Source: a virus
Virus record (IMG/VR): IMGVR_UViG_3300044617_000866
Location: 1 to 25,917 of that record
DNA: 25,917 nucleotides
Reading direction: 5' to 3' (one strand)
Shown piece after piece: positions 992 to 25,917 of this stretch. A program made the translations under genes and the position numbers. The number at the start of each line of letters is the position of its first letter. Within the stretch, counting starts at the first letter, position 1. The notes below the pieces were generated by a model that was not told the DNA's origin, ran no database searches, and saw only the letters and a list, made by a program, of their open reading frames with translations.

Positions 992-3019
992 ATGTATGTG
1001 GTCGTTGGATATGACGAAGATGGCTACCCCATTTGGGGGGATGACGGCTCGGAAGCAGGGTCTGGTACAGACGACGAAACCTCCGGCAATCTGATTAGTC
1101 TGGGCGGGCCCGAAGACATCATTGGGCAGTCTGTCGGAAACTTCACCATTGGTTCCGATGTCATCTACCGTTTGCCTGACGGCACCGGTATGGGCATCAA
1201 CACGGAGACCGGTGAGTATTACCCCATTAATGCGGCGCAACTGACCGCTATGTCTTCCGGCAGTGGTAGCCCCTCTGCGGATTTCATGTCCAATCTGCGC
1301 GGTGCAGGTGTGTCGCTTGGTGCGGGTAGTTCATTCAATCGTCTGGTCAACCAGATGAAAGGGTTCTTCAAGAACCCCGATGGGTCGATTAACTGGGCAG
1401 GTTTGACTACCGCAGCGGCAGGCTTGTATGGCTTGCGTGGGGGTATGGACGTCAAAACCGGCGGCTACAACGTGCCGGTGCCAAAACTGACAGCCACCCG
1501 GGAGGCCGTGAACATTCAGGATCCCAACCGTCGCCCCGGCCAAGGCGGGCTGCGGTATTTCACAGACGTGCAGTACACGCCTCAAGGCGACGCAACGGCT
1601 CTTGCTGCGGCGCAACAAGCAGCGGCGACGCAAGCCGCCGGGCTTCGCGCGGCCTATACGCCCACTGCCGCTCCTCCGGCAACAAGCACGTACGCCGGTA
1701 CATTTAAGATGCCGTGGGAAAAGACCCCCACTGCGGCTCCGGCGCCCGCCCCTGCCGCCCAGGGTGCATCCAGTGTGGGTGATGTACTTCGCCCTGAGCA
1801 GCGCCTGCCTACGCAGCAACAACAAGGAATAGCAACCATGGCTGATGGCGGTATTGCAATGCTGGCCCGTGGAGGTCGTTATCTCCAAGGCGCCACGGAC
1901 GGAATGGCGGACAAGATTCCGAGTTCTATTGATGGCAAGCAACCTGCGGCGCTGAGCCATGGGGAGTTTGTGATCCCTGCGGACGTCGTGTCGCACTTGG
2001 GTAACGGCAATTCGGACGCCGGTGCCAAGAAGTTGTACGACATGATGGCGCGGGTGCGCAAAGCCCGCACCGGAACGCAAAAACAGGGCAAGAAAATCAA
2101 CCCGGACAAGTTCATGCCCGGCGGCCTTGCAGGCTACGCCAGTGGTGGCGTGGTTGCTTTTCAGGCGGGCGGAACCGCCAGTACAGCGTCTACGCCTACC
2201 GTAACTGGCTATGGCACCTCCCAAGCCTCCACCCTGTCTCCGTGGGCCGGTGAGTACGTTACTAACCTGCTGGGCGAAGCCCAAGCCCTCTCCAAGCAGC
2301 CGTATCAAGCCTACCAAGGTCCCCTGACGGCGGGTGCGTCCAACTTGCAGCAGCAAGCGTTTGCGGGCGCCAGTGAGTTGGCGAAGACTGGCTACACCCC
2401 TGGCACGTTCACGGCGGGTACCTTTGGCCTGGACGCGGCCAAGCAGTACATGAATCCGTACTTGCAGTCAGTGCTTGACCCCACGTTGGCGGAAATGAAG
2501 CGGCAATCAGACATTGCCCGCTTGTCGGACGCGTCGCGGCTTACGCAGGCAGGAGCGTTCGGCGGCAGCCGTCAAGCCATCATGGAGTCCGAAGGTCGCC
2601 GTAATCTGCTGGAGAAGCAGCGTCAAGCGATTGGAGAAGGCTACGCAAGTGCCTACGACAAGGCCATGGCGCAGTTCAACGCTGAGCAAGGCCGACAGAT
2701 GGAAGCCCAGAAAGCCGGTGAGGCGTCGCGTCAATTCAGCGCAGACTTCGGCGCAAAGTCGATTGCAGACCTTGCCAAGTTGGGTGCAGAGCAACGCGAC
2801 ATCGAGCAGCAGGGGCTGACGGCGGAGCGTAAGGCGTTCGAAGAGGAGCGGGCCTATCCGTTCTCCATGCTTGACTACCGTCGCAAGATGGTCGAAGGAC
2901 TGCCGATTGGCGCGTCGTCCACTACACCCAACACCACGGGTATGTCTCAAATTACGTCCCGTATCAACGACCTTGAGTCGTTGTACAACACCCTGCGCAA
3001 CCTCGGCCAAGGCGGATAA
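992..3019 (+). CDS. Ala/Gln-rich probable internal virion protein, 675 aa
   Basis: The start follows GAGGTG a few bases upstream. The N-terminal ~130 residues are Gly/Ser-rich and acidic. Around residues 285-335 is a pattern I know from aquatic phage virion proteins: a Gly-rich stretch, then DGMADKIPSSIDG and SHGEFVIPADVV. A second Gly-rich block with GGVVAFQAGG follows near 385. The C-terminal ~250 residues are Ala/Gln-rich and mostly helical, with QYMNPYLQSVLDP, GAFGGSRQAI and long Gln/Glu/Ala helices, resembling phage proteins often annotated as internal virion or DNA transfer proteins. No signal peptide, membrane segment or catalytic motif is seen. Together with the next two genes it probably forms the late block for the ejected or tail-associated proteins. 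Family resemblance is from memory; the role is inference. Confidence 0.7.
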   Translation: MYVVVGYDEDGYPIWGDDGSEAGSGTDDETSGNLISLGGPEDIIGQSVGNFTIGSDVIYRLPDGTGMGINTETGEYYPINAAQLTAMSSGSGSPSADFMSNLRGAGVSLGAGSSFNRLVNQMKGFFKNPDGSINWAGLTTAAAGLYGLRGGMDVKTGGYNVPVPKLTATREAVNIQDPNRRPGQGGLRYFTDVQYTPQGDATALAAAQQAAATQAAGLRAAYTPTAAPPATSTYAGTFKMPWEKTPTAAPAPAPAAQGASSVGDVLRPEQRLPTQQQQGIATMADGGIAMLARGGRYLQGATDGMADKIPSSIDGKQPAALSHGEFVIPADVVSHLGNGNSDAGAKKLYDMMARVRKARTGTQKQGKKINPDKFMPGGLAGYASGGVVAFQAGGTASTASTPTVTGYGTSQASTLSPWAGEYVTNLLGEAQALSKQPYQAYQGPLTAGASNLQQQAFAGASELAKTGYTPGTFTAGTFGLDAAKQYMNPYLQSVLDPTLAEMKRQSDIARLSDASRLTQAGAFGGSRQAIMESEGRRNLLEKQRQAIGEGYASAYDKAMAQFNAEQGRQMEAQKAGEASRQFSADFGAKSIADLAKLGAEQRDIEQQGLTAERKAFEEERAYPFSMLDYRRKMVEGLPIGASSTTPNTTGMSQITSRINDLESLYNTLRNLGQGG

Positions 3020-3030
3020 GAGGTACTGAT

Positions 3031-4644
3031 ATGCCATCTCCCAATCTTGTTCAGATCCAACGCGACCTGCAAATGCTGCCCCCTGGGGCGCAGACCATGA
3101 TGTATCTCAAGCGGGCCAAAGATGGCATGGTGGCATCCGTGCCTCCGTACTTGGCCGCTGCGGAACTCGCAGGGCGCGAAAAAATGGCGCAGCGTCAGGC
3201 CCTGTCTGACGGTGCCGCTCCTGGCGAACAGCCCACAGTCTCACAACAGTTGTCGCAGAAGGCTGACCTGTTGGCTCTTCAGGCCATGAAGAAGCAGGCT
3301 ATGGATCGGCAGGGGCTTGACCAAGCCCGAAGTGCCGTGATGCCCGCGCCGGAGGGCTCTCCCGAGCCCGAGGAGCAGCCGCGCCGCGAAGGCGGCATTG
3401 ACCGTTTGCCGGTGGACTTTGGTCTGGCCGGTGGCGGAATCGTGGCGTTCCAGCAGGGCGGCGTACCCATGACAACGGGCTACGCTCCTGACTACCAAGA
3501 AGCCCGAGAGATGGGCATTGACCTGAGTCCGTACGATTCTCCTGAAGTGCGTAAGGAGAAGTTGGAGCGTCTTGCCCGCATGCGCGAGTTCCGCAAGCAA
3601 GCCGGAACGGCGCAGATCCCCGGACAAGCGGCTGATGTGCAAGCCCTGGCTGCACAGATGAACAAGCCGCCCGCGCCCCCGGCTCCGCCGGTCAGGACGT
3701 CTACTATGACGCCGCAGCAGATGGAGGCTCAAGTAAAGAAGCCCCAAGTTGCTCCGCCTGCACCGCCCGCCGCAGCGCCCGCCCCCGCTGCTCCGCAGCA
3801 GCCTCCCACTGCCGACTTGCGTGCCGCACTTATGGGACGCTTGGGGCTTGGCGAAGGTGCGCCAGAAGGCGCCGCTGCGCCTTCGCAATCCGGTCTGGCC
3901 CAGGCCGGTGCTGACGTGAAAGCGTTGGCTGCGTCCATGGGACTCGGCACCCCCGCCGGGGCCGAAGAGCGCGAGATGATTGCGCAGATGCGTGCCCGTC
4001 ACGCTCAGCAGGAAAAAGACCGGGCCCGTATGGGGCTCAAGGCAGTCCTTGGCGGATTTAGCCGAGGTTACGGCGGCGCTGCGGCGTCCGAGCAAGAGTT
4101 TGCACAGCGTGCCTATGCTGAAGACATGCAGCATCAGCGGCAGATGTACGACTTGGTTAACGCCATCAACACCGGCAATCGCAAGGAAGCCGAGAAAGCA
4201 TTTGATAAGGCTATCAATTTGGGAGAGTCCCGCGAAAAAGAAGTCGGGGCGATGAGTCGTAGCCAGTTGCAGGCCTTGTCGCAGATGTATTCCTCTGAAC
4301 TCCAAGCCGGTAGCAGCAAGTACAACACTGACGCACATGTGCGCGTGGCTCTGGCGCAAGCCGAGCGCGCGGGCAAAAGTAACGACCTCCAAGAGCGCAA
4401 GTTGGCGGTGGATGGTTTGCAGTCTGCTGAACGCGGAGTTCAGTCTGAACTGAACAAACTGCACGGTCTTATGGATGTGGAGAGCCGCAGGAGTCGGAAG
4501 AAACTGGAAGACGACCTGAAAGATATCCGCACTCGAATTTCTGCGCTATCGGGCGCGGACAAACTGGCTCCGGTTGCGGCGGCGGGTACTGCTCCGACCG
4601 CCTCAACTCAAGGGCGTGCTCGTTTCCTCGGCTACGAAAAGTAA
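3031..4644 (+). CDS. Ala/Gln/Pro-rich probable internal virion protein, 537 aa
   Basis: The start is preceded by AGAGG. It shares style with its upstream neighbour: Ala/Gln-rich helices and a Gly-rich GLAGGGIVAFQQGG segment near residue 135, parallel to GGVVAFQAGG in the 675-aa protein. Residues about 205-285 form a Pro/Ala linker with several PPAP runs. The remainder is charged, Ala/Gln-rich and probably coiled-coil (QMRARHAQQEKDRARM, later heptad-like Leu/Lys/Glu). No enzyme motif is visible. The spacing (11 bases after the previous stop, 6 before the next start) marks one operon. Probable minor or internal virion protein; exact function unknown. The shared Gly-Ala-Phe-Gln motif suggests a family or common assembly signal with its neighbour. 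Confidence 0.65.
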   Translation: MPSPNLVQIQRDLQMLPPGAQTMMYLKRAKDGMVASVPPYLAAAELAGREKMAQRQALSDGAAPGEQPTVSQQLSQKADLLALQAMKKQAMDRQGLDQARSAVMPAPEGSPEPEEQPRREGGIDRLPVDFGLAGGGIVAFQQGGVPMTTGYAPDYQEAREMGIDLSPYDSPEVRKEKLERLARMREFRKQAGTAQIPGQAADVQALAAQMNKPPAPPAPPVRTSTMTPQQMEAQVKKPQVAPPAPPAAAPAPAAPQQPPTADLRAALMGRLGLGEGAPEGAAAPSQSGLAQAGADVKALAASMGLGTPAGAEEREMIAQMRARHAQQEKDRARMGLKAVLGGFSRGYGGAAASEQEFAQRAYAEDMQHQRQMYDLVNAINTGNRKEAEKAFDKAINLGESREKEVGAMSRSQLQALSQMYSSELQAGSSKYNTDAHVRVALAQAERAGKSNDLQERKLAVDGLQSAERGVQSELNKLHGLMDVESRRSRKKLEDDLKDIRTRISALSGADKLAPVAAAGTAPTASTQGRARFLGYEK

Positions 4645-4650
4645 GTTGCT

Positions 4651-7600
4651 ATGCCGATTGCTCGTTTCCAGATGCCAGACGGGCGCATCGCCCGTTTTGA
4701 AATTCCCGCAGGGCTAAGCCCCGAGCAGGCCGAGCAACTTATTCAGGCAGAAGTTTCTGCCATGCCTGCGGCGGCACCCAAAGCCGCGCCGTTCTCTCTG
4801 CGAGACGTGGCCCTGTCTCTGGGGCAAGGTGCCGTGGGCGGCGTCAAGGCTCTGACCGATGTGTTCGGTGCAGGCAACGTAGCCTCCGAAACCTTGGAGC
4901 GCGGCCAACGCGCACTGGGCGAAGCCATGACGCCCGAGCGTCAAGCGGAGTTGCAGCGGCGTGCCCAGATGGCAAAAGCCGCTGAAGAGCAAGGTGTTGG
5001 CGCGGAAGTCAGCACGGCTCTGGGCGGCGTGGCCGAAGCGCCCCTGCAAAGCGCGGCGCAAGCGGTGGGTTCCTTCCTGCCCTTCATGCTTGCGGCCCCG
5101 GTCGGCGCTGCGGCCAAACTGCTGCCCGCCACCATGAAGGCCATCAACACCGTGATCGGCACGGCGCAAGGCGTCGGCGCGGTCAAGGGCTCCATCTACG
5201 ACTCTGTAAAAGAACGTCTGATATCCGAAGGGATGCCGGAGCAACTGGCTGAGCAGCAGGCACAGGCCGCGCAAGCCTATACGGGCAAGAACCTCGAACA
5301 GATTGGGTTGGGAGGCGCACTGGGCGCTGTGGCCGGTAGGTTCGGTGCAGAAAGTCTCCTGTCAAAAGCGGGGGCCCAACAGGCCGCTCCCGGCATGCTG
5401 CGTCGTGCAGGCACGGCGGCGTTGGCTGAAGCGCCTACGGAAGCCGCACAGGGCGGTCAGGAACGCATGGCTGCGAACATTGCGTTGCAGCGTGAGGGCT
5501 TTAACGTCCCGACGTTCCAAGGCGTAGCCGGTCAGGCTGCACAAGAAGCCGCCATGGGCGCCCTTGGCGGCGCTGCGGTTGGTGCTGTTCGCGGGCCCGA
5601 GGTTCAACCTCCGCCCGCTCCTCCCGCGCCGCCCGCTCCCCCTGCTCCGGCCCCGGCACCCGCTGCCCCCGCCGTAGACCTCACGAAGTCGTACGGAGAA
5701 CTTTGGAAGCAGCGCGAAGAACTGCGGGCTGCGGAAAAGACGCCGGAGACTGAGGCCGTTATCGGCCAACTGTCGCAGCGCATCCGGGAACTGGACATTG
5801 AGGGCATCAATACTGCACGGCAGCAGAAAGCCCAGGAGCAGTCTGATGCAGAGAAGGCAGCGCGCAGCGCCTTTACGCAGCCCGGTCAGCAAATGGAGAT
5901 GCGGGAGTTCCTGCCCCCCGGCGGCGCCCAACTTGCAACCGAAGTCGAAACTGAACCCACACTGCGTGAGCAGCGCGCAGAGTACCGCCAAGATCGTCGG
6001 GAGTTGCGTGAGCAGGGGCAGATGCGCCTGCCGTTCCGCTACACCGGAGAAGGTGAGCCCACGTCCACGACGCCGCCCCCGGCGCCGCGCATCTATATGC
6101 CGGACATCGAAGCCGTCGGCGTGCCGTTTAAGACCGCAAAGGATTGGTTCAACCGTAACGTCGTCAACCGCACCAAGGAAGATGTCGCTGCTCTTGTGCA
6201 GCAGGATCCTTCTCTGGTAAAAGGTCAGGGGTCGCGGGCCAAGATTCTCCGAGCCTTGTTGGGCCCGGACGTACCCGCATTTAAGGAGGCCCCCCGTGGA
6301 GCGCCAACGCCAACACCTGTTAGTGCAAAACCTCAGCCCGGAGGAGATCAGCGAGGCGTGGGCGTACCTAGCGCGCCTCCCGTCGCCGGACCTCCCGCAG
6401 CCGCTGCTCCCGCCGCACCTAAAAGACCTGTCGCCCCTAGATTGGCACCTGTTGCACCACCTGCTCCAGCAGGAGTTGCAGGAGAGGGACAGCAGCCCCT
6501 TGCACTGACTCCGGCCCCGGCCCCCGCTGCGCCTGTAGAAGATACCCGCACGGCGGCTGAGGTTCAGACTGCGATCGACTCGCTGCGCAACAAGCAGCGC
6601 GGACTGCTGCTCAAGAGCGGCAAGGTGCCGATGCCCAACTCCAAGGCTCGTAAAGCCTACGACGAGTTGGAAACCCAGGTGCAGGAACTGATCCCCGTCT
6701 ACGACCGCAAGGCCGAGGAAGAGCGCCAGCGGGACGCCGCCGAGATGCAGCGTCGCTTGGACGAGCAGCAGAAGAAGACTGCGGAAGGCAAACGTAAGGC
6801 GCCCCCTGCGGCTGCCCCGGCTCCGACCAAGCCCACGCCGCCCATCTCCGAAGAGATGCGCGAGCCCATCGGCACGTCCACGTTTGGCATGGAAGAAGGC
6901 GAGGTCGAGATCCGTCGTGGCCCGCAGGCTGAGTTGTTCCCGTCGAGCAAGGCTGAGACGCGCAAGCGTGCCGAGGCCGCTGATAAGCGGGAGCGCGAAG
7001 CCGTAGAAGCCGAACCCCCGAGGGCCACCACGCCCGACGGACGGCAGATTGAGTTGGGGCTTGACACGGAAGTGGTACGCAGTGAAGCGGTATCCCCGGG
7101 TGGCCCCGAATCGGTCACTGAGTCCGTCGCCCTGGCCGCGATTGACCGCAGGCCCATGATTGAAGTGGCGCAGTGGGCGGCTAAGAATTTGCCTGACCAA
7201 GATCAGCGAGTGATCGCACAGCGCGTGGTCGTCATGCTGCAACGACTGGCGGGCATGGGTGTGGATCTTCGTCCCATAGAAGTAACCCCTGCGGGGTACC
7301 GTTTGGCCAGTGGAGCCCTTGGTCATGCTGACTACCAGCGCAATGCCGGGGCCCCGAGCACGGTTACCATTCGTCTAAATCATCCCTCAAACGGAGCCCA
7401 ATCGGGCGTCAATGAAGAGATTCTGCTGCATGAACTGCTGCATGCGGCTACGTTTGGCGCAATCGAGTTGGGGCGACTGCCAACGGCCAAGGGCACAGCA
7501 GTTGAAAAGGCTACGGATGACTTGTACAAGGTAGCGGAAGCCGTTGTACAGCACTACAACCAACGAGCGAGAACTCTTGGTGCCAAGGGCCTGACTCCAT

Positions 7601-10506
7601 TTGAGCAGCAAATCTACAACCAGCAGAACAACGCGCTGCGTAACCCTCACGAAGTGCTCTCCTGGGGGCTGACCAACCGCAGTATGCAGCAGTACATGGA
7701 GTCGATTCCCTACAAGGGGTCGAACGCATGGAACCAATTCGTTACGTTCATCCGTGACTTGCTCGGTATTCCGGCCAAGGCGGACACGGCTCTGTCCGAA
7801 CTGCTGCGCGTAACCGACACTTTGCTTGATCTTACGGCGGAAGAAATCCAAGGCGCAGAGAAGGCGACCGGCAGACAGTTCGCCATGTCCTATGGCGCTC
7901 AGCAGATCATCGACGCCATGGGTCCGATCGAGCCCGAGCGCCTGCCTTGGTACAAGGCCATGGTGCAGGGCATCACGACCCAGCCCGGGGATCCGACCCT
8001 TGGCACCAAGTTCCGCGTCATGATGGCGGACTCGGCTGCGGCTGTGGAGCAGCGCCTCCAGGCTAAGTTCAACGGCGCCGTGCGGGACGCGTTGGGCAAC
8101 CTCAACCCCATGGGCGCACTGCGGCAGGCGCAGGACTACGTAAAACTCCTGCCGGAATACTTCCAGAAAGGCTCGATCGAGAAAGATCCGACGACCGGGC
8201 TGTGGAAGGTAGTCGAAAAGAAGGGCGTGCCGCCCCCGGTCGAAGTGTTTGCCGCCTTGGAGAAGTGGTCCAAGAAGAACGGCTACTCGATGGAAGGTGG
8301 TACCCGTGCGGCAAGCCGCATCCTCGAAGCCATGCGCTTGAAGGAGTTGCTGAAGTCCAACCAGACGAAGGGTACCGAGTTCGTTATCCACATGCCGGAG
8401 GCCGACATCGACGCCCTGGCAAAAGAATACAACGCCGACCCCGACCTGCAAGAGATCAGCACGCTGATGGACAAGGCCCGTATCGCCATGGTGGACAACA
8501 TGGTGGCCGTGGGGCGGCTGTCTAAGGCCGAGGGTGATGCGTGGAAGTCGGTAGTCAACTACGTGCCGTTTGACCGCATATCGGATGAGATCTCCTCGTT
8601 CGATCGCATCAAGAAACTGTCTGGCAAGGGCGTGGCACAGTTGGGCAAACTGCCAGAACTGGTCGGCTCCCTGGAGCGCCCGGTGGGCAACGTGTTCACC
8701 AACTACGCAAACACGCTCGGTTGGATGCTGCGGCAGACAACTAATGCCGACGCCACGCGCACCACGATCGAAGTCATGGAAAGCATGGGCTTGGCCAAGC
8801 CGCTTGGCACAACCACGCAGCACAAAGACAACACCGTCGGCGCGTACGTGGATGGAGAACTGCGGTTCTGGCAAGTGCCAAGCAAGTACGACGTGTTGGC
8901 ATTCAAGGATCTGACGCTGCCCAAGAGCGGGCTGATGAAGTTCCTCGGGGCGTTCTCCAACGTGCTGCGCACCACGGTTACTGCACTGCCGCCTTTCGCG
9001 CTCAAGCAGGTGGCGGACGACGTGCAGCGCGCCATCTTCACGTCAGGCGTTCGCAACCCGGGTCCCATGATCCGCATGGCTTTGACGAACTTCCCGAAGA
9101 TCGCCCTGGCCGAAATGCGCGGCATCAAGCATCCCATCGTGCGGGAACTGGGCGACCTGGGCCTGACCGGCGAGTACGACTTCCAACAGGGACGCCCTGC
9201 CGAGTCGCTGCTCAAAGAAGCGGGCTACATGAAGCGTGGCCGGTTCGAGACTTTGCTGCATCGACTGGATGGCATCACGCGAGCATCCGACATCGCGGTG
9301 CGCAAGGCCATCTACGATCAGACCAAGCGCGAGACGAACGACGAGTTGCTGGCCCAGGTGCGGGCCCGAGAGTTCATCAACTTCCGTCGGCGCGGAGCCA
9401 GTAACTTCGCCGCTTCGCTCACGTCCACCATCCCGTTCTTCAACGCCTACATCCAGGGTACCGACGTGCTGTACCGTGCGGCCACCGGCCAAGCGGCAGC
9501 ATCAGGGCTTGAAAGAACTGCCGCCCGTCGGCTGTTCTGGAGCCGCGCGGCCATGCTCACTGCGTTCGCTACGCTGTATGCCCTTGGCAAGTCCGACGAT
9601 GAGGACTACAAGGACATGGACCTGCGCACCCGGGACGGCAACTGGATCTTGGGTGACGGCCTGAAGATCGGGGTGCCGACCGAACTGGGCGCCATCTTCA
9701 AGGTGATCCCGGAGCGCATGGTCGAATACTACAAGCGCAAGGGTACGCCGGAGGAGCAGGAGGCCATGGAGGCTGTCCGCACCGCTGTGGCTTACATCGC
9801 GGAGCAATACTTCGGACGCGCCATGCCGATCCCGCAGGCTGCCAAGCCGCTGCTTGAGGCATGGACCAACTTCTCGTTCCTGACCATGCGCCCCCTGGAA
9901 GGCATCTTCCAGAAGGGCCAACTGCCCAGTGAGCGCCGCACGGCTACAACCAGTGAACTGGCAATCGCCATGGCAGGATTTAGTCGGGATATGGTTGGCG
10001 TTCAGATATCCCCAATCATGATCGACAACGTGCTGCGCGGGTACTTCGGCTCTACGGCGGCCATGGTCACCATGGCAACGGACAGCCTGCTGAACCCGAC
10101 GCGGGTCGATCGCCCCCTGCACAAGTACGCGTTGCTGTCGAACTACCTGTACGACCCGGTTGGCACCCGTCAACTCTCGGAGTTCTACGAAGAGCGCGAG
10201 AAGGTGGGGCAGATCAACGCTACGCTCAACGAGTTGGCAAAGACGGATCCCGTCCGCGCCGAAGCGTTCGCCGTGGAGAACGAAGACCGCCTCATGCTAG
10301 AACGGTCGATCAACGCTACGCTGAACCAGTTGAAAGACACCCGCGCGTACCGCAAGTATCTCAACAGCCCGATCGGGGCCGAAGAGATGCCCAAGGACGA
10401 GCGGGAGCGCGAACTGGAAGAGATCCGCAAGTTGGAGGCCGAACTCACCGGGTGGCTGCGAGAGGCCAAGACGGAGATCCGCAAAGCGGGTCGGATGGCG
10501 GTCTAG
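4651..10506 (+). CDS. Giant polyvalent virion protein, zincin motif + LPD38-like region, 1951 aa
   Basis: The start is 6 bases after the previous stop; its Shine-Dalgarno is weak. Order of parts: a short N-terminal MPDGRIARFEIPAGL module; an Ala/Gly-rich hydrophobic region (about 110-310) with glycine-zipper-like stretches such as GGALGAVAGRFG; Pro/Ala linkers near 315-340 and 545-625; charged coiled-coil near 630-780; a metalloprotease core with HELLH at 927-931 (zinc ligands H927/H931, catalytic E928) and NPHE at 998-1001, where E1001 is a plausible third ligand; and a C-terminal half with FTNYANTLGWMLRQ, IPFFNAYIQGTDVLYRA and a helical tail, which resembles large polyvalent protein domain LPD38. 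Position at the end of the virion block and the membrane-active-looking N-terminus suggest a protein ejected with the genome. The protease substrate is unknown. Its stop overlaps the stop of the opposing gene. Confidence 0.8.
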   Translation: MPIARFQMPDGRIARFEIPAGLSPEQAEQLIQAEVSAMPAAAPKAAPFSLRDVALSLGQGAVGGVKALTDVFGAGNVASETLERGQRALGEAMTPERQAELQRRAQMAKAAEEQGVGAEVSTALGGVAEAPLQSAAQAVGSFLPFMLAAPVGAAAKLLPATMKAINTVIGTAQGVGAVKGSIYDSVKERLISEGMPEQLAEQQAQAAQAYTGKNLEQIGLGGALGAVAGRFGAESLLSKAGAQQAAPGMLRRAGTAALAEAPTEAAQGGQERMAANIALQREGFNVPTFQGVAGQAAQEAAMGALGGAAVGAVRGPEVQPPPAPPAPPAPPAPAPAPAAPAVDLTKSYGELWKQREELRAAEKTPETEAVIGQLSQRIRELDIEGINTARQQKAQEQSDAEKAARSAFTQPGQQMEMREFLPPGGAQLATEVETEPTLREQRAEYRQDRRELREQGQMRLPFRYTGEGEPTSTTPPPAPRIYMPDIEAVGVPFKTAKDWFNRNVVNRTKEDVAALVQQDPSLVKGQGSRAKILRALLGPDVPAFKEAPRGAPTPTPVSAKPQPGGDQRGVGVPSAPPVAGPPAAAAPAAPKRPVAPRLAPVAPPAPAGVAGEGQQPLALTPAPAPAAPVEDTRTAAEVQTAIDSLRNKQRGLLLKSGKVPMPNSKARKAYDELETQVQELIPVYDRKAEEERQRDAAEMQRRLDEQQKKTAEGKRKAPPAAAPAPTKPTPPISEEMREPIGTSTFGMEEGEVEIRRGPQAELFPSSKAETRKRAEAADKREREAVEAEPPRATTPDGRQIELGLDTEVVRSEAVSPGGPESVTESVALAAIDRRPMIEVAQWAAKNLPDQDQRVIAQRVVVMLQRLAGMGVDLRPIEVTPAGYRLASGALGHADYQRNAGAPSTVTIRLNHPSNGAQSGVNEEILLHELLHAATFGAIELGRLPTAKGTAVEKATDDLYKVAEAVVQHYNQRARTLGAKGLTPFEQQIYNQQNNALRNPHEVLSWGLTNRSMQQYMESIPYKGSNAWNQFVTFIRDLLGIPAKADTALSELLRVTDTLLDLTAEEIQGAEKATGRQFAMSYGAQQIIDAMGPIEPERLPWYKAMVQGITTQPGDPTLGTKFRVMMADSAAAVEQRLQAKFNGAVRDALGNLNPMGALRQAQDYVKLLPEYFQKGSIEKDPTTGLWKVVEKKGVPPPVEVFAALEKWSKKNGYSMEGGTRAASRILEAMRLKELLKSNQTKGTEFVIHMPEADIDALAKEYNADPDLQEISTLMDKARIAMVDNMVAVGRLSKAEGDAWKSVVNYVPFDRISDEISSFDRIKKLSGKGVAQLGKLPELVGSLERPVGNVFTNYANTLGWMLRQTTNADATRTTIEVMESMGLAKPLGTTTQHKDNTVGAYVDGELRFWQVPSKYDVLAFKDLTLPKSGLMKFLGAFSNVLRTTVTALPPFALKQVADDVQRAIFTSGVRNPGPMIRMALTNFPKIALAEMRGIKHPIVRELGDLGLTGEYDFQQGRPAESLLKEAGYMKRGRFETLLHRLDGITRASDIAVRKAIYDQTKRETNDELLAQVRAREFINFRRRGASNFAASLTSTIPFFNAYIQGTDVLYRAATGQAAASGLERTAARRLFWSRAAMLTAFATLYALGKSDDEDYKDMDLRTRDGNWILGDGLKIGVPTELGAIFKVIPERMVEYYKRKGTPEEQEAMEAVRTAVAYIAEQYFGRAMPIPQAAKPLLEAWTNFSFLTMRPLEGIFQKGQLPSERRTATTSELAIAMAGFSRDMVGVQISPIMIDNVLRGYFGSTAAMVTMATDSLLNPTRVDRPLHKYALLSNYLYDPVGTRQLSEFYEEREKVGQINATLNELAKTDPVRAEAFAVENEDRLMLERSINATLNQLKDTRAYRKYLNSPIGAEEMPKDERERELEEIRKLEAELTGWLREAKTEIRKAGRMAV
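6282..6289 (+). promoter_or_regulatory. Full-length Shine-Dalgarno for the nested gene
   Basis: TAAGGAGG sits six bases before the GTG at 6296, inside the coding sequence of the polyvalent protein (codons for Phe-Lys-Glu-Ala). It is the best ribosome binding site I noticed in the window and is not needed by the host frame. Confidence 0.75.
6296..6508 (+). CDS. Overlapping nested gene, 70-aa helical protein inside the polyvalent gene
   Basis: This frame lies wholly within the 1951-aa gene, shifted by +1. It starts with GTG six bases after TAAGGAGG, a complete 8-base match to the 16S rRNA anti-Shine-Dalgarno. The protein is soluble-looking with two amphipathic helices: LSPEEISEAWAYLARL (13-28) and LSPLDWHLLHHLLQQELQE (45-63), separated by a Pro/Leu segment, and it ends SSPLH. 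By hand count, 61 of its 70 codons end in G or C (about 87%), against about 24 of 70 (34%) for the host frame over the same bases, while the host frame there is only a Pro/Ala linker. That is the pattern of a linker shaped by overprinting. The style resembles small aquatic-phage proteins ending in a similar helix, but this is from memory. Function unknown. Confidence 0.7.
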   Translation: MERQRQHLLVQNLSPEEISEAWAYLARLPSPDLPQPLLPPHLKDLSPLDWHLLHHLLQQELQERDSSPLH

Positions 10507-23692: not shown

Positions 23693-23900
23693 TTGGATCC
23701 TCCGCTAAACCGCGCCACTCGTCATTGCGGCAGATATAAAGCCGGTTGGTTTTATCCTTCAGCCAGTGCATCCACACCGCGCCTGTCCAAAACGCCCGGA
23801 TCTCTTCGATGCCCTCACCCCTGAAGTCATACCATCCGACGTGCATCGGGCGAAACTCTTTGGCGCGGAACCACTGCGTAAGTTTGGGTTTGGTTTTCAT
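23682..23900 (-). CDS. Small Trp-rich hypothetical protein, 72 aa
   Basis: ATG at 23900 overlaps the upstream stop as ATGA, with AGGAAG ahead. The centre, RPMHVGWYDFRGEGIEE followed by AVWMHWLKDK and NRLYICRNDEWRGLA, is rich in Trp and Tyr and looks like a compact beta fold seen in small phage proteins with a HVGWY motif. Function unknown. It also contains the ribosome site of the first tiny membrane protein. Confidence 0.72.
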   Translation of the reverse strand: MKTKPKLTQWFRAKEFRPMHVGWYDFRGEGIEEIRAFWTGAVWMHWLKDKTNRLYICRNDEWRGLAEDPNGR

Positions 23901-24448
23901 GCGAACATCTTCCTCAATTTGTCGAACAATTCCTTGGCCTGCGCGATCGTCAGCGTGGCGATCAACTCGTCAATGGAGTTGACCACGCGCGGAGCGGGTG
24001 CCACGGGCGCCGGAGGAGGCGTGATAGTGGCCTCCTTGCGAGTGAGCACGATCTTGGGCTTGGCGGCCTTCGGATTGCGCCCCGTGGGTGTGGGAGTGTT
24101 GCGGGCCTGACGCAGTTTGCTCAGTTTGACTGGCGAATACTCACGTGCGTTGGTCCAGTACGTGCCGTCCTTATCTCGGTTAATGATGCCTGTGCGGGAC
24201 ATCTGCGACAGAATCGAGGACACCGACGACCCCTTGTGCCCCTGTGCGCCCAGGGCATCGCGGATCTCGCGGTTTTTGCAGCGGGGGTTGTCGCGCACGT
24301 AGTTGAACGTCTCCCGCGTCACGTCGCTAGTGCGGGTGAAGAACTGGGTGCCGGATGGGCGTTGGTCGTGTGTTTGTTGCATGGGTGTTGGCTCCGGTTG
24401 ATTCCACTCGTTGAGTGCTGATTGCAGTGCTGTTTTCAGATCAGGCAT
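23897..24448 (-). CDS. Winged-helix DNA-binding protein, 183 aa
   Basis: ATG at 24448 is chosen over ATG 24460 because GGAG lies six bases before it. Residues about 43-100 form a winged helix: VTRETFNYVRDNPRCKNREI, then a DALGAQGHKGSSVSSILSQM recognition region and a NRDKDGTYWT wing. Next is a basic Pro-rich linker (~105-155), then a C-terminal helix SIDELIATLTIAQAKELFDK. Probable regulator or DNA-binding accessory factor of the block. No operator is recognised. The C-terminal helix may serve dimerisation. Confidence 0.8.
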   Translation of the reverse strand: MPDLKTALQSALNEWNQPEPTPMQQTHDQRPSGTQFFTRTSDVTRETFNYVRDNPRCKNREIRDALGAQGHKGSSVSSILSQMSRTGIINRDKDGTYWTNAREYSPVKLSKLRQARNTPTPTGRNPKAAKPKIVLTRKEATITPPPAPVAPAPRVVNSIDELIATLTIAQAKELFDKLRKMFA

Positions 24449-24467
24449 GATGGGCTCCATCTAAGGC

Positions 24468-24662
24468 TTAGAAGAGTTCAAGTTGACGGTCGTCCGGGTG
24501 TGGACGTGGGGCTTGCGGATCGCGCTTGGCTTGCGCGTGTTGAAGTTCGTCGATGTCCCGAAGGCGCATCTCCAGTCGCTCTCCCACGGCGCGTGCCAGG
24601 GCGTCGCCCTTCAGGTACACCATGTTCAGCAACTCCTCATCACTCAGGTTCTCGTATCTCAT
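24468..24662 (-). CDS. Small acidic protein ending in a clamp-binding-like QLELF, 64 aa
   Basis: ATG at 24662 overlaps the upstream stop as ATGA. Residues 1-47 are helical and charged (YENLSDEELLNMVYLKGDAL, RLEMRLRDIDEL), followed by a Pro-rich flexible tail and the terminal pentapeptide QLELF (60-64). This matches the bacterial beta sliding-clamp binding consensus QL[S/D]LF closely, with Glu in the third place. A mini-protein with a helical body, loose linker and terminal clamp motif could bind host DnaN. Binding is inference; five residues can match by chance. Confidence 0.75.
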   Translation of the reverse strand: MRYENLSDEELLNMVYLKGDALARAVGERLEMRLRDIDELQHAQAKRDPQAPRPHPDDRQLELF

Positions 24663-25036
24663 TTGCGTGCATCCTCAAGGTCAATGAATGTGGTTAGTTG
24701 ATGGCTCTTGTCGGTACGGAACCACAGGATTTCGTCCGGTGGCGGCACGTTGGTCTTGCGTAGATGGCCGGATATCTTCGCCACCACGAGGATGGGCGCA
24801 AGCCATACCGGCACGTTGTCTGTGTTTCCACGGTCAGTCCACTCGGTGCCGTTGTGCCAACGCTTGATGAGATAGACATCCCCACGTCGCTCGTACCGGA
24901 ACTCGTATTCGTCGTTTGTCATGCGGAAGAGTTTCCTTCTGTTGTCTCCGATGCGGGCGCAGTCGGCTATGTAGAGCGGGTCTTCCCGATCTTCCTCGTC
25001 CATCTCCTCAAGCCACTGTTGTTTGAGTATTCCCAT
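24659..25036 (-). CDS. Hypothetical protein with acidic N-terminus, 125 aa
   Basis: ATG at 25036 is chosen for its GGAG at seven bases. It overlaps the upstream DUF3150-like gene by 29 bases. The N-terminal 30 residues are acidic (WLEEMDEEDREDP); the middle is beta-rich with YEFRYERRGDVYLIKRW; the C-terminal part has VWLAPILVVAKISGHL and ILWFRTDKSHQLTTF. No motif identifies a family. Its stop overlaps the next start as ATGA. Confidence 0.7.
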   Translation of the reverse strand: MGILKQQWLEEMDEEDREDPLYIADCARIGDNRRKLFRMTNDEYEFRYERRGDVYLIKRWHNGTEWTDRGNTDNVPVWLAPILVVAKISGHLRKTNVPPPDEILWFRTDKSHQLTTFIDLEDARK

Positions 25037-25917
25037 CGTCCACTCCCCAGTCGAATGCCGCCAGAATCGCGTCCACCTTCTGCTTGGTAGCCGCACGGGT
25101 ACCGTCGGACTCTCGCAAGTCCTTCGGGGTTACGCCAGACAGAACTTCCTCCAAACGACGCCGCGCCTTGTCCAACGCCGGGTCCTTGGTGATGTTCATG
25201 TGGGTCAACAACTCACACAACTCCAACGCACCCGTGACCATGGTGTCGTGGAACTTACGCTTCTTGCCGTCCTCTTCAATCACGAGTCGGTCACTCAGGC
25301 GGGACAGCGCATCGTGCAGTCGAGTCCATGAGTCCTGCGCCGCCGCTTCCAACTGTTGCTCCATGCGCTTGTCGTACTGACGCATGAGGTCGCGTTGCAC
25401 TTCGCTCTCGATGTCCAGTCGGAAGTCGCCCGCCGTGGGCAGGGGGGAGAACGCGATGTCGAACCGGAACTTGCGCGCCACCTGCTCACGGGTGGGGTAC
25501 TCATCACGATCGAACAACGTGCCCAACTGGAACGCGGCGGCGGCCACGAGCGTGTCGTACTTGTCGAGGAACGCCTCGACCAGACGGTTGAACTCAGCCT
25601 CATGCACGTTCATCTCTGCCTTGTAGGACTGCAACAGGGCAGTGGGCAACAAGCGCGCGCCGTAGTCGTTCCAGGGCTTCGTGAGTCGGTAGTGGTCGGC
25701 ACGTGCACGGGCTTGGTACTTGGTGATGGCATCCAGTTCGGCGCACTCTGCGAACAGAGACTTGTAGACAGACGCCGCCTTGGCCGACTTCGCGCCCTTG
25801 GATTGCGTCACCTCGGCTTGCGTAGCCTTGTCCTGCTTGCGCCCCGAGTACAGGGAGATTTGCAGGTCCACGAGCATGGCCGCACGTGCCACGCCTGCTA
25901 CGGGGTTGGTTTCGATG
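25008..25917 (-). CDS. DUF3150-like protein, 5' end beyond the window
   Basis: The frame is open to the right edge. A GTG at 25892 could start it, but the family-like opening AMLVDLQISLYSGRKQDK lies only a few residues later, and family members usually have extra residues ahead, so the start is probably outside. The protein is helical, with RLTKPWNDYGARLLPTALL, then YPTREQVARKFRFDIAFSPL and a coiled-coil-like C-terminal half. It ends FDWGVDDGNTQTTVA. I assign it to DUF3150 by the N-terminal pattern and general layout. In other phages and plasmids such genes tend to sit beside CobS/MoxR-like AAA ATPase genes; whether one lies to the right cannot be seen. Confidence 0.6.
   Translation of the reverse strand, partial: IETNPVAGVARAAMLVDLQISLYSGRKQDKATQAEVTQSKGAKSAKAASVYKSLFAECAELDAITKYQARARADHYRLTKPWNDYGARLLPTALLQSYKAEMNVHEAEFNRLVEAFLDKYDTLVAAAAFQLGTLFDRDEYPTREQVARKFRFDIAFSPLPTAGDFRLDIESEVQRDLMRQYDKRMEQQLEAAAQDSWTRLHDALSRLSDRLVIEEDGKKRKFHDTMVTGALELCELLTHMNITKDPALDKARRRLEEVLSGVTPKDLRESDGTRAATKQKVDAILAAFDWGVDDGNTQTTVA

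Follow-up and report, generated by a model that had tools for sequence, protein, structure and literature searches.

The window, that is, the whole stretch of DNA analysed here, is an entire virus contig of 25,917 bases from a tailed phage, which encodes a family-A DNA polymerase (PolA), a DUF927 primase/helicase-like protein and a giant LPD38 polyvalent protein. The gene under study lies on the minus strand at 24468..24662 and specifies a mini-protein of 64 aa, from an ATG start to the terminal residues RQLELF and a TAA stop; its translation is MRYENLSDEELLNMVYLKGDALARAVGERLEMRLRDIDELQHAQAKRDPQAPRPHPDDRQLELF. Three parts were distinguished: a body (residues 1–47; 24522..24662, minus strand), modelled as a two-helix hairpin, whose conserved core in an alignment reads NLTDEELLR...LAERLEMRLRDIEE; a flexible, acidic and proline-rich linker (residues 48–59; 24486..24521, minus strand); and the C-terminal sequence QLELF (residues 60–64; 24471..24485, minus strand), which corresponds to the clamp-binding motif (CBM) as defined in PMC11139829. 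Among the 30 plausible genes listed in the window, this gene alone ends in such a motif.

Upstream of the mini-protein gene lies a gene referred to here as gene 2 (24659..25036, minus strand; 125 aa from the ATG at 25036; synteny cluster 2), for which no Pfam family scored above its cut-off. The TGA stop of gene 2 and the ATG of the mini-protein overlap as ATGA, which suggests translational coupling of the two genes. Gene 2 is preceded by a DUF3150 gene that is cut by the contig end (25008..25916, minus strand; PF11348, 28.1 bits, cut-off 24.9). Downstream, separated by a 7-base gap, is a winged-helix/MarR-like gene of 187 aa (23897..24460, minus strand; phrog_1687, E 1.2e-6; synteny cluster 3). 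Because the genes are packed so tightly, with the ATGA overlap on one side and the short gap on the other, the row is probably an operon. The phage PolA (17931..19838, minus strand; 635 aa; PF00476, E 2.1e-35) is without a CBM.

Structure prediction was carried out by using AlphaFold2 with a 13-row alignment (mean pLDDT 75.8, pTM 0.50). Helices were predicted at residues 8–18 and 21–47, with pLDDT blocks of 83–91 over residues 1–40; the values fell to blocks of 68 and 53 in the linker and below 50 at residues 61–64, so that the tail is predicted to be disordered. The segment PQAPRPHPDDR, which is rich in proline and likewise predicted to be disordered, directly precedes QLELF, which fits the CBM peptide pattern and would lie in an accessible segment. 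The reading frame, and with it the original prediction of a 64-aa protein ending exactly in QLELF after a flexible proline-rich segment, was confirmed on the minus strand. No sequence match to the mini-protein better than E 0.46 was obtained in the PDB, and a Foldseek search of BFVD gave no match at E ≤ 0.001, the best (E 0.36) being an uncharacterised phage protein of 51 aa. As modelled, the hairpin is too simple a fold to point to any relative.

Searches of IMG/VR with the mini-protein yielded 11, then 33, then 34 loci. The set of 33 comprises 19 distinct proteins; 32/33 loci end exactly in Q[LM][EKR]LF, and the remaining one (L011) ends in QLELDI. Gene order is kept in the relatives (ATPase, VWA, DUF3150, gene 2, mini-protein, winged-helix gene), and in some of them the winged-helix gene is flanked on one side or the other by an extra gene (cluster 52). 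Immediately upstream (25008–25916 in the window), the relatives share a conserved module made up of the ATPase, VWA and DUF3150 genes; in Synechococcus phage MinM2, too, the annotation places MoxR, DUF3150 and VWA-like genes together. A second candidate motif, ADQLPLF in the ATPase of two relatives (G004, G006), was rejected, since the corresponding site in relatives reads ADSLPLY and ADQLPSF.

In a survey blind to the tail, only the DUF3150 protein served as bait. From 124 relatives the best 80 were taken, which biases the sample towards near relatives, and the downstream slot was scanned by using an HMM built from residues 1–40 of the mini-protein only. The body was found in the same slot in 78 of these 80 loci; in the remaining two, the contig stops 160 and 383 bases downstream. 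Within this sample (best 80 of 124), the strict motif occurred in the last 16 residues in 54/78 loci (39/59 distinct proteins) and a relaxed motif in 5/78 (5/59 distinct proteins: QQELF, QQDLF, QMKFNF, QRELF and QTKLF), and 19/78 loci (15/59 distinct proteins) had no motif. Bodies with no motif, often continued as a probable coiled coil, were seen at the slot after gene 2 in L098, L099, L102–L104, L106–L109, L111, L113, L119–L121, L140, L147 and L154. In a tree of DUF3150 proteins, all eight rows of the clade of the window (support 99) were tailed. Conservation of the tail in homologues, to which the original prediction had looked, was borne out for 32/33 of the relatives found with the mini-protein and, in strict form, for 54/78 of the tail-blind loci; it does not extend to the 19 loci without the motif.

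As a background, the other ORFs of the 78 loci were examined: within their last 16 residues, 2/1045 distinct ORFs carried the strict motif, while 0/1045 ended exactly in it. These ORFs were taken from a greedy longest-ORF list made without a gene finder; the greedy rule misses the mini-protein gene in the window and in G004, where longer overlapping frames win, and the list therefore holds spurious ORFs.

According to PMC11139829, the CBM follows the pattern Q-φ-x-[L/M]-[F/L] or Q-φ-x-[L/M]-x-[F/L], that is, Gln in first place, an aliphatic residue in second, a free third, Leu or Met in fourth, and Phe or Leu (Ile being tolerated) in fifth or sixth, and the motif of a clamp ligand is flanked by acidic residues or bears a free carboxylate. 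The Gln, Leu4 and Phe5 are invariant, and position 3 is Lys, Glu or Arg, in the 21 distinct genes that end in Q-x-x-L-F; the internal type (QLNLF, then mostly EDDDA), with 24 distinct genes, shows the same three invariant residues. As both groups were picked by patterns containing Q and LF, the independent evidence lies in the tail-blind count and in the codon differences. The codons in the 21 genes were CAA (18) and CAG (3) for Gln, TTG (11), CTC (9) and CTA (1) for Leu4, and TTC (12) and TTT (9) for Phe5; since the tail codons vary, the nucleic acid itself, DNA or RNA, shows no apparent constraint. In about half of the tailed members the motif is QLNLF and lies a few residues short of the C-terminal end, and two members have six-residue forms (QLELDI and QMKFNF); these changes of register, six-residue and internal with EDDDA, match those known from clamp ligands. 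In 46 short tailed members (of 49, the other three being cut at the 5′ end), mean pairwise identity was 0.97 at the anchor positions versus 0.41 in the six preceding linker residues, the pattern used itself starting with Gln; linker length ranged from 8 to 23 residues, and the flanks were net negative in 39/46. By these sequence comparisons, the tail is kept by selection as a putative clamp-binding motif, the anchors being almost invariant while codons and linker vary.

An enlarged set of 80 distinct body proteins comprised 47 with the strict motif, 8 with a relaxed motif and 25 with none; as unusual members are over-represented in it by design, the proportions should not be read as a survey. 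A MazG-like domain of about 110 residues follows the body in 17 distinct members, and in the one fused relative scanned with Pfam it was recognised as PRA-PH (PF01503, E 2.9e-6). Six of the 17 end in a motif (QLKLF, QTKLF, QRELF in two, QFELF and QREMF) and 11 do not; in five of the six tailed ones, position 2 is Thr, Arg or Phe, which lies outside the canonical aliphatic choice. Such fused bodies, with or without a tail, were found in a sister phage group (L190–L206, for example L190 at 3001–3489). The motif is also lacking in 14 distinct short members, several of which continue as what was judged by eye to be a probable coiled coil. Where the tail is present in the fused relatives, the domain known from phage MazG-like/PRA-PH pyrophosphohydrolases (PF01503) sits between body and tail; it is absent from the window protein, in which Pfam gave 0 matches for a PRA-PH/MazG domain. 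The model of a MazG-fused relative (mean pLDDT 55) was too poor for use.

MazG-like proteins that stand alone carried a CBM in the last 16 residues in 0/63 loci (one entry in the table, L205, is in fact a body protein overlooked by the search pattern), and the full-length MazG-like proteins of six named phages gave none ending in the motif. Over the 82 rows of the DUF3150 tree, which was built by a quick method and has many weak forks, the presence of the tail changes six times and the state MazG-fused or short five times. L195 (MazG with QFELF) was placed among short members ending in QLKLF, and L158 (short, QQELF) adjoins tailed MazG members; from these two placements, the tail outlasts the gain or loss of about 110 residues.

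To identify a possible partner, clamp genes were sought in the phage records. The DnaN domain PF02767 was found in 0/11 records and PF02768 in 0/15 and 0/13, with positive controls in 10 and 11 of 14 genomes; together these searches covered 34 distinct records, including the window, many of them fragments and the longest 61–67 kb. The gp45 clamp domain PF02916 was found in 0/15 records, the control for which was weak (one genome only, below the cut-off). Because most of the related records are fragments, a clamp gene may have been missed. The window mini-protein itself contains neither a DnaN nor a gp45 domain (0 Pfam matches). A clamp encoded by the phage was rejected as the partner, as no DnaN or gp45 domain was seen in the records searched; the partner would then be the host DnaN, in agreement with the original prediction, and we infer that the host clamp is the natural partner of the tail.

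The PolA gene was present in 14/15 and 4/13 records, the 13 being mostly small fragments. A canonical motif was found in 0/18 of the PolAs examined, whether or not their phage has the tail, and under relaxed criteria the only matches were QMTIDI in L183 and QALMY in L184. A role of the mini-protein as an adaptor for PolA found no support, nothing tying the body to PolA, and the benefit to the phage PolA that had been proposed at the outset is likewise unsupported. The open frame of the L178 PolA (G009:C1:46437-49166) spans 912 aa, compared with about 630–650 in most relatives.

Taken on the sequence evidence, the most likely explanation, to which we assign a probability of roughly 0.6, is that a small phage protein docks on the host sliding clamp through its tail, with a tether as the likeliest mechanism. 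The tail would dock on the host DnaN and would hold the body, plus whatever the body binds or carries, at clamp-loaded DNA; occupation of the pocket may also disturb the host Pol III, as a side effect or as a second function. Binding of the tail to DnaN in one form or another appears likely, by which the phages would probably attach one of their own proteins to the replication clamp of the host.

The body is kept without a tail and is also fused to a MazG-like domain, which argues that it has a job of its own. A broader adaptor reading can be put forward tentatively, at somewhat less than even odds: a single hairpin domain would be combined at the same locus with a clamp tail, with MazG plus tail, with MazG alone or with a coiled coil, and in the tailed forms would deliver phage activities (when fused, a nucleotide-cleaning enzyme) to the clamps of the host on DNA. 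A widespread group of tailed phages with PolA-type polymerases would then use the host clamp as a landing platform and not for their polymerase.

The main job of the protein might instead be to occupy the DnaN pocket and stop the host Pol III while the clamp-independent phage PolA continues, a reading regarded as plausible but clearly less likely. It draws on the lack of a canonical motif in the PolAs and of a phage clamp in the records searched, as well as on the report that an over-expressed QLDLF peptide inhibits the growth of E. coli (PMC11139829). There are also phage precedents: Twort gp168 and phage G1 gp240 act on DnaN, and N4 gp8 acts on HolA, part of its loader (PMC3594737). The first two, which bind the DnaN of S. 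aureus, resemble the mini-protein as small phage proteins directed at a host clamp, here the presumed one (PMC3594737, PMC11139829). Gp168, however, is described as binding the DNA channel and not the peptide pocket (PMC11139829), and the likeness is by description only. Moreover, a body kept without its tail, as in 14 distinct members (short or coiled-coil), and a fusion to a MazG-like domain at the same locus, as in 17, would be surprising for a pure blocker. Both kinds of member speak for a tether rather than for inhibition alone.

It is less probable still that the tail binds some other partner, for example as a mimic of the tip of SSB or as a C-terminal degron. The SSB tip is acidic and hydrophobic, and many tailed members have acidic residues followed by a motif with a terminal Phe, which gives a superficial likeness. 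Yet 25 distinct members have residues after QLNLF, so a terminal carboxylate is not required, and both variants are disfavoured by these internal forms; in addition, Gln1 is present in 46/46 short tailed members (selected by a pattern that itself starts with Gln), and six-residue forms exist. That QLELF is a chance or merely inherited ending without function is highly improbable and was rejected, for although short motifs arise by chance and the window alone would not exclude this, the tail is conserved against a low ORF background, its codons vary, and it bears the signature of selection independently of its context.

Family libraries and collections were searched with the mini-protein and other members of its family. 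PHROGs gave 0 matches for the window protein and scattered weak ones for other members (best E 0.046), Pfam 0 matches and a best E of 0.02 for other members, and NCBIfam 0 matches. No match was found among the INPHARED phages with three family members or in two scans of bacterial genomes, and plasmids gave one match at chance level only. In MinM2, a relative at 25 % in DUF3150, no clamp motif was present in the 24 genes around DUF3150. No phage mini-protein of this kind was met in the literature searched, most subscription papers being outside its scope. The clamp-binding motif itself is textbook knowledge; the window protein that carries it is absent from Pfam, PHROGs and NCBIfam and had no match in the annotated phage collection.

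The sliding clamp is both an essential hub and a target for antibiotics. With known CBM ligands the mini-protein shares a short Q-φ-x-[LM]-[FL] or six-residue motif, a flexible C-terminus and acidic flanks; it differs from them in being a small phage protein without a polymerase, the homology being limited to the motif. A further comparison, by description only, is SocB of Caulobacter, which meets DnaN via a clamp-binding motif and stops elongation; the account in PMC9690074 presents it as the toxin of a toxin–antitoxin pair and not as a phage protein. A phage family in which a putative clamp motif is retained, shifted and re-attached would provide natural evidence of what the pocket accepts. 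Its repertoire (position 2 mostly Leu or Met, 3 free, 4 Leu, 5 Phe, with six-residue and internal forms) offers ready-made test ligands and opens to direct test the question of whether phages that have a polymerase of their own nonetheless make use of the host clamp. An annotation is also offered for a protein that the family libraries searched miss.

Two other regions of the window were noted. At the start of the contig (2–983, plus strand), long low-complexity repeats of Pro-Thr-Val coincide with long open frames on either strand. The LPD38 protein (4651–10506, plus strand) contains the clamp-motif-like peptides QMRLPF, QAELF and QIELGL, and its homologues contain QLGLGL, QADLF and QLTLPL (G004), QMDLGL (G006) and QLELDF (G009); a homologue also occurs in G001, and the peptides lie at non-matching places across the homologues. 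In a post-hoc test against shuffles, peptides of this kind showed a mild excess (7 versus 2.99 expected), which was reached in 79/2000 shuffles.
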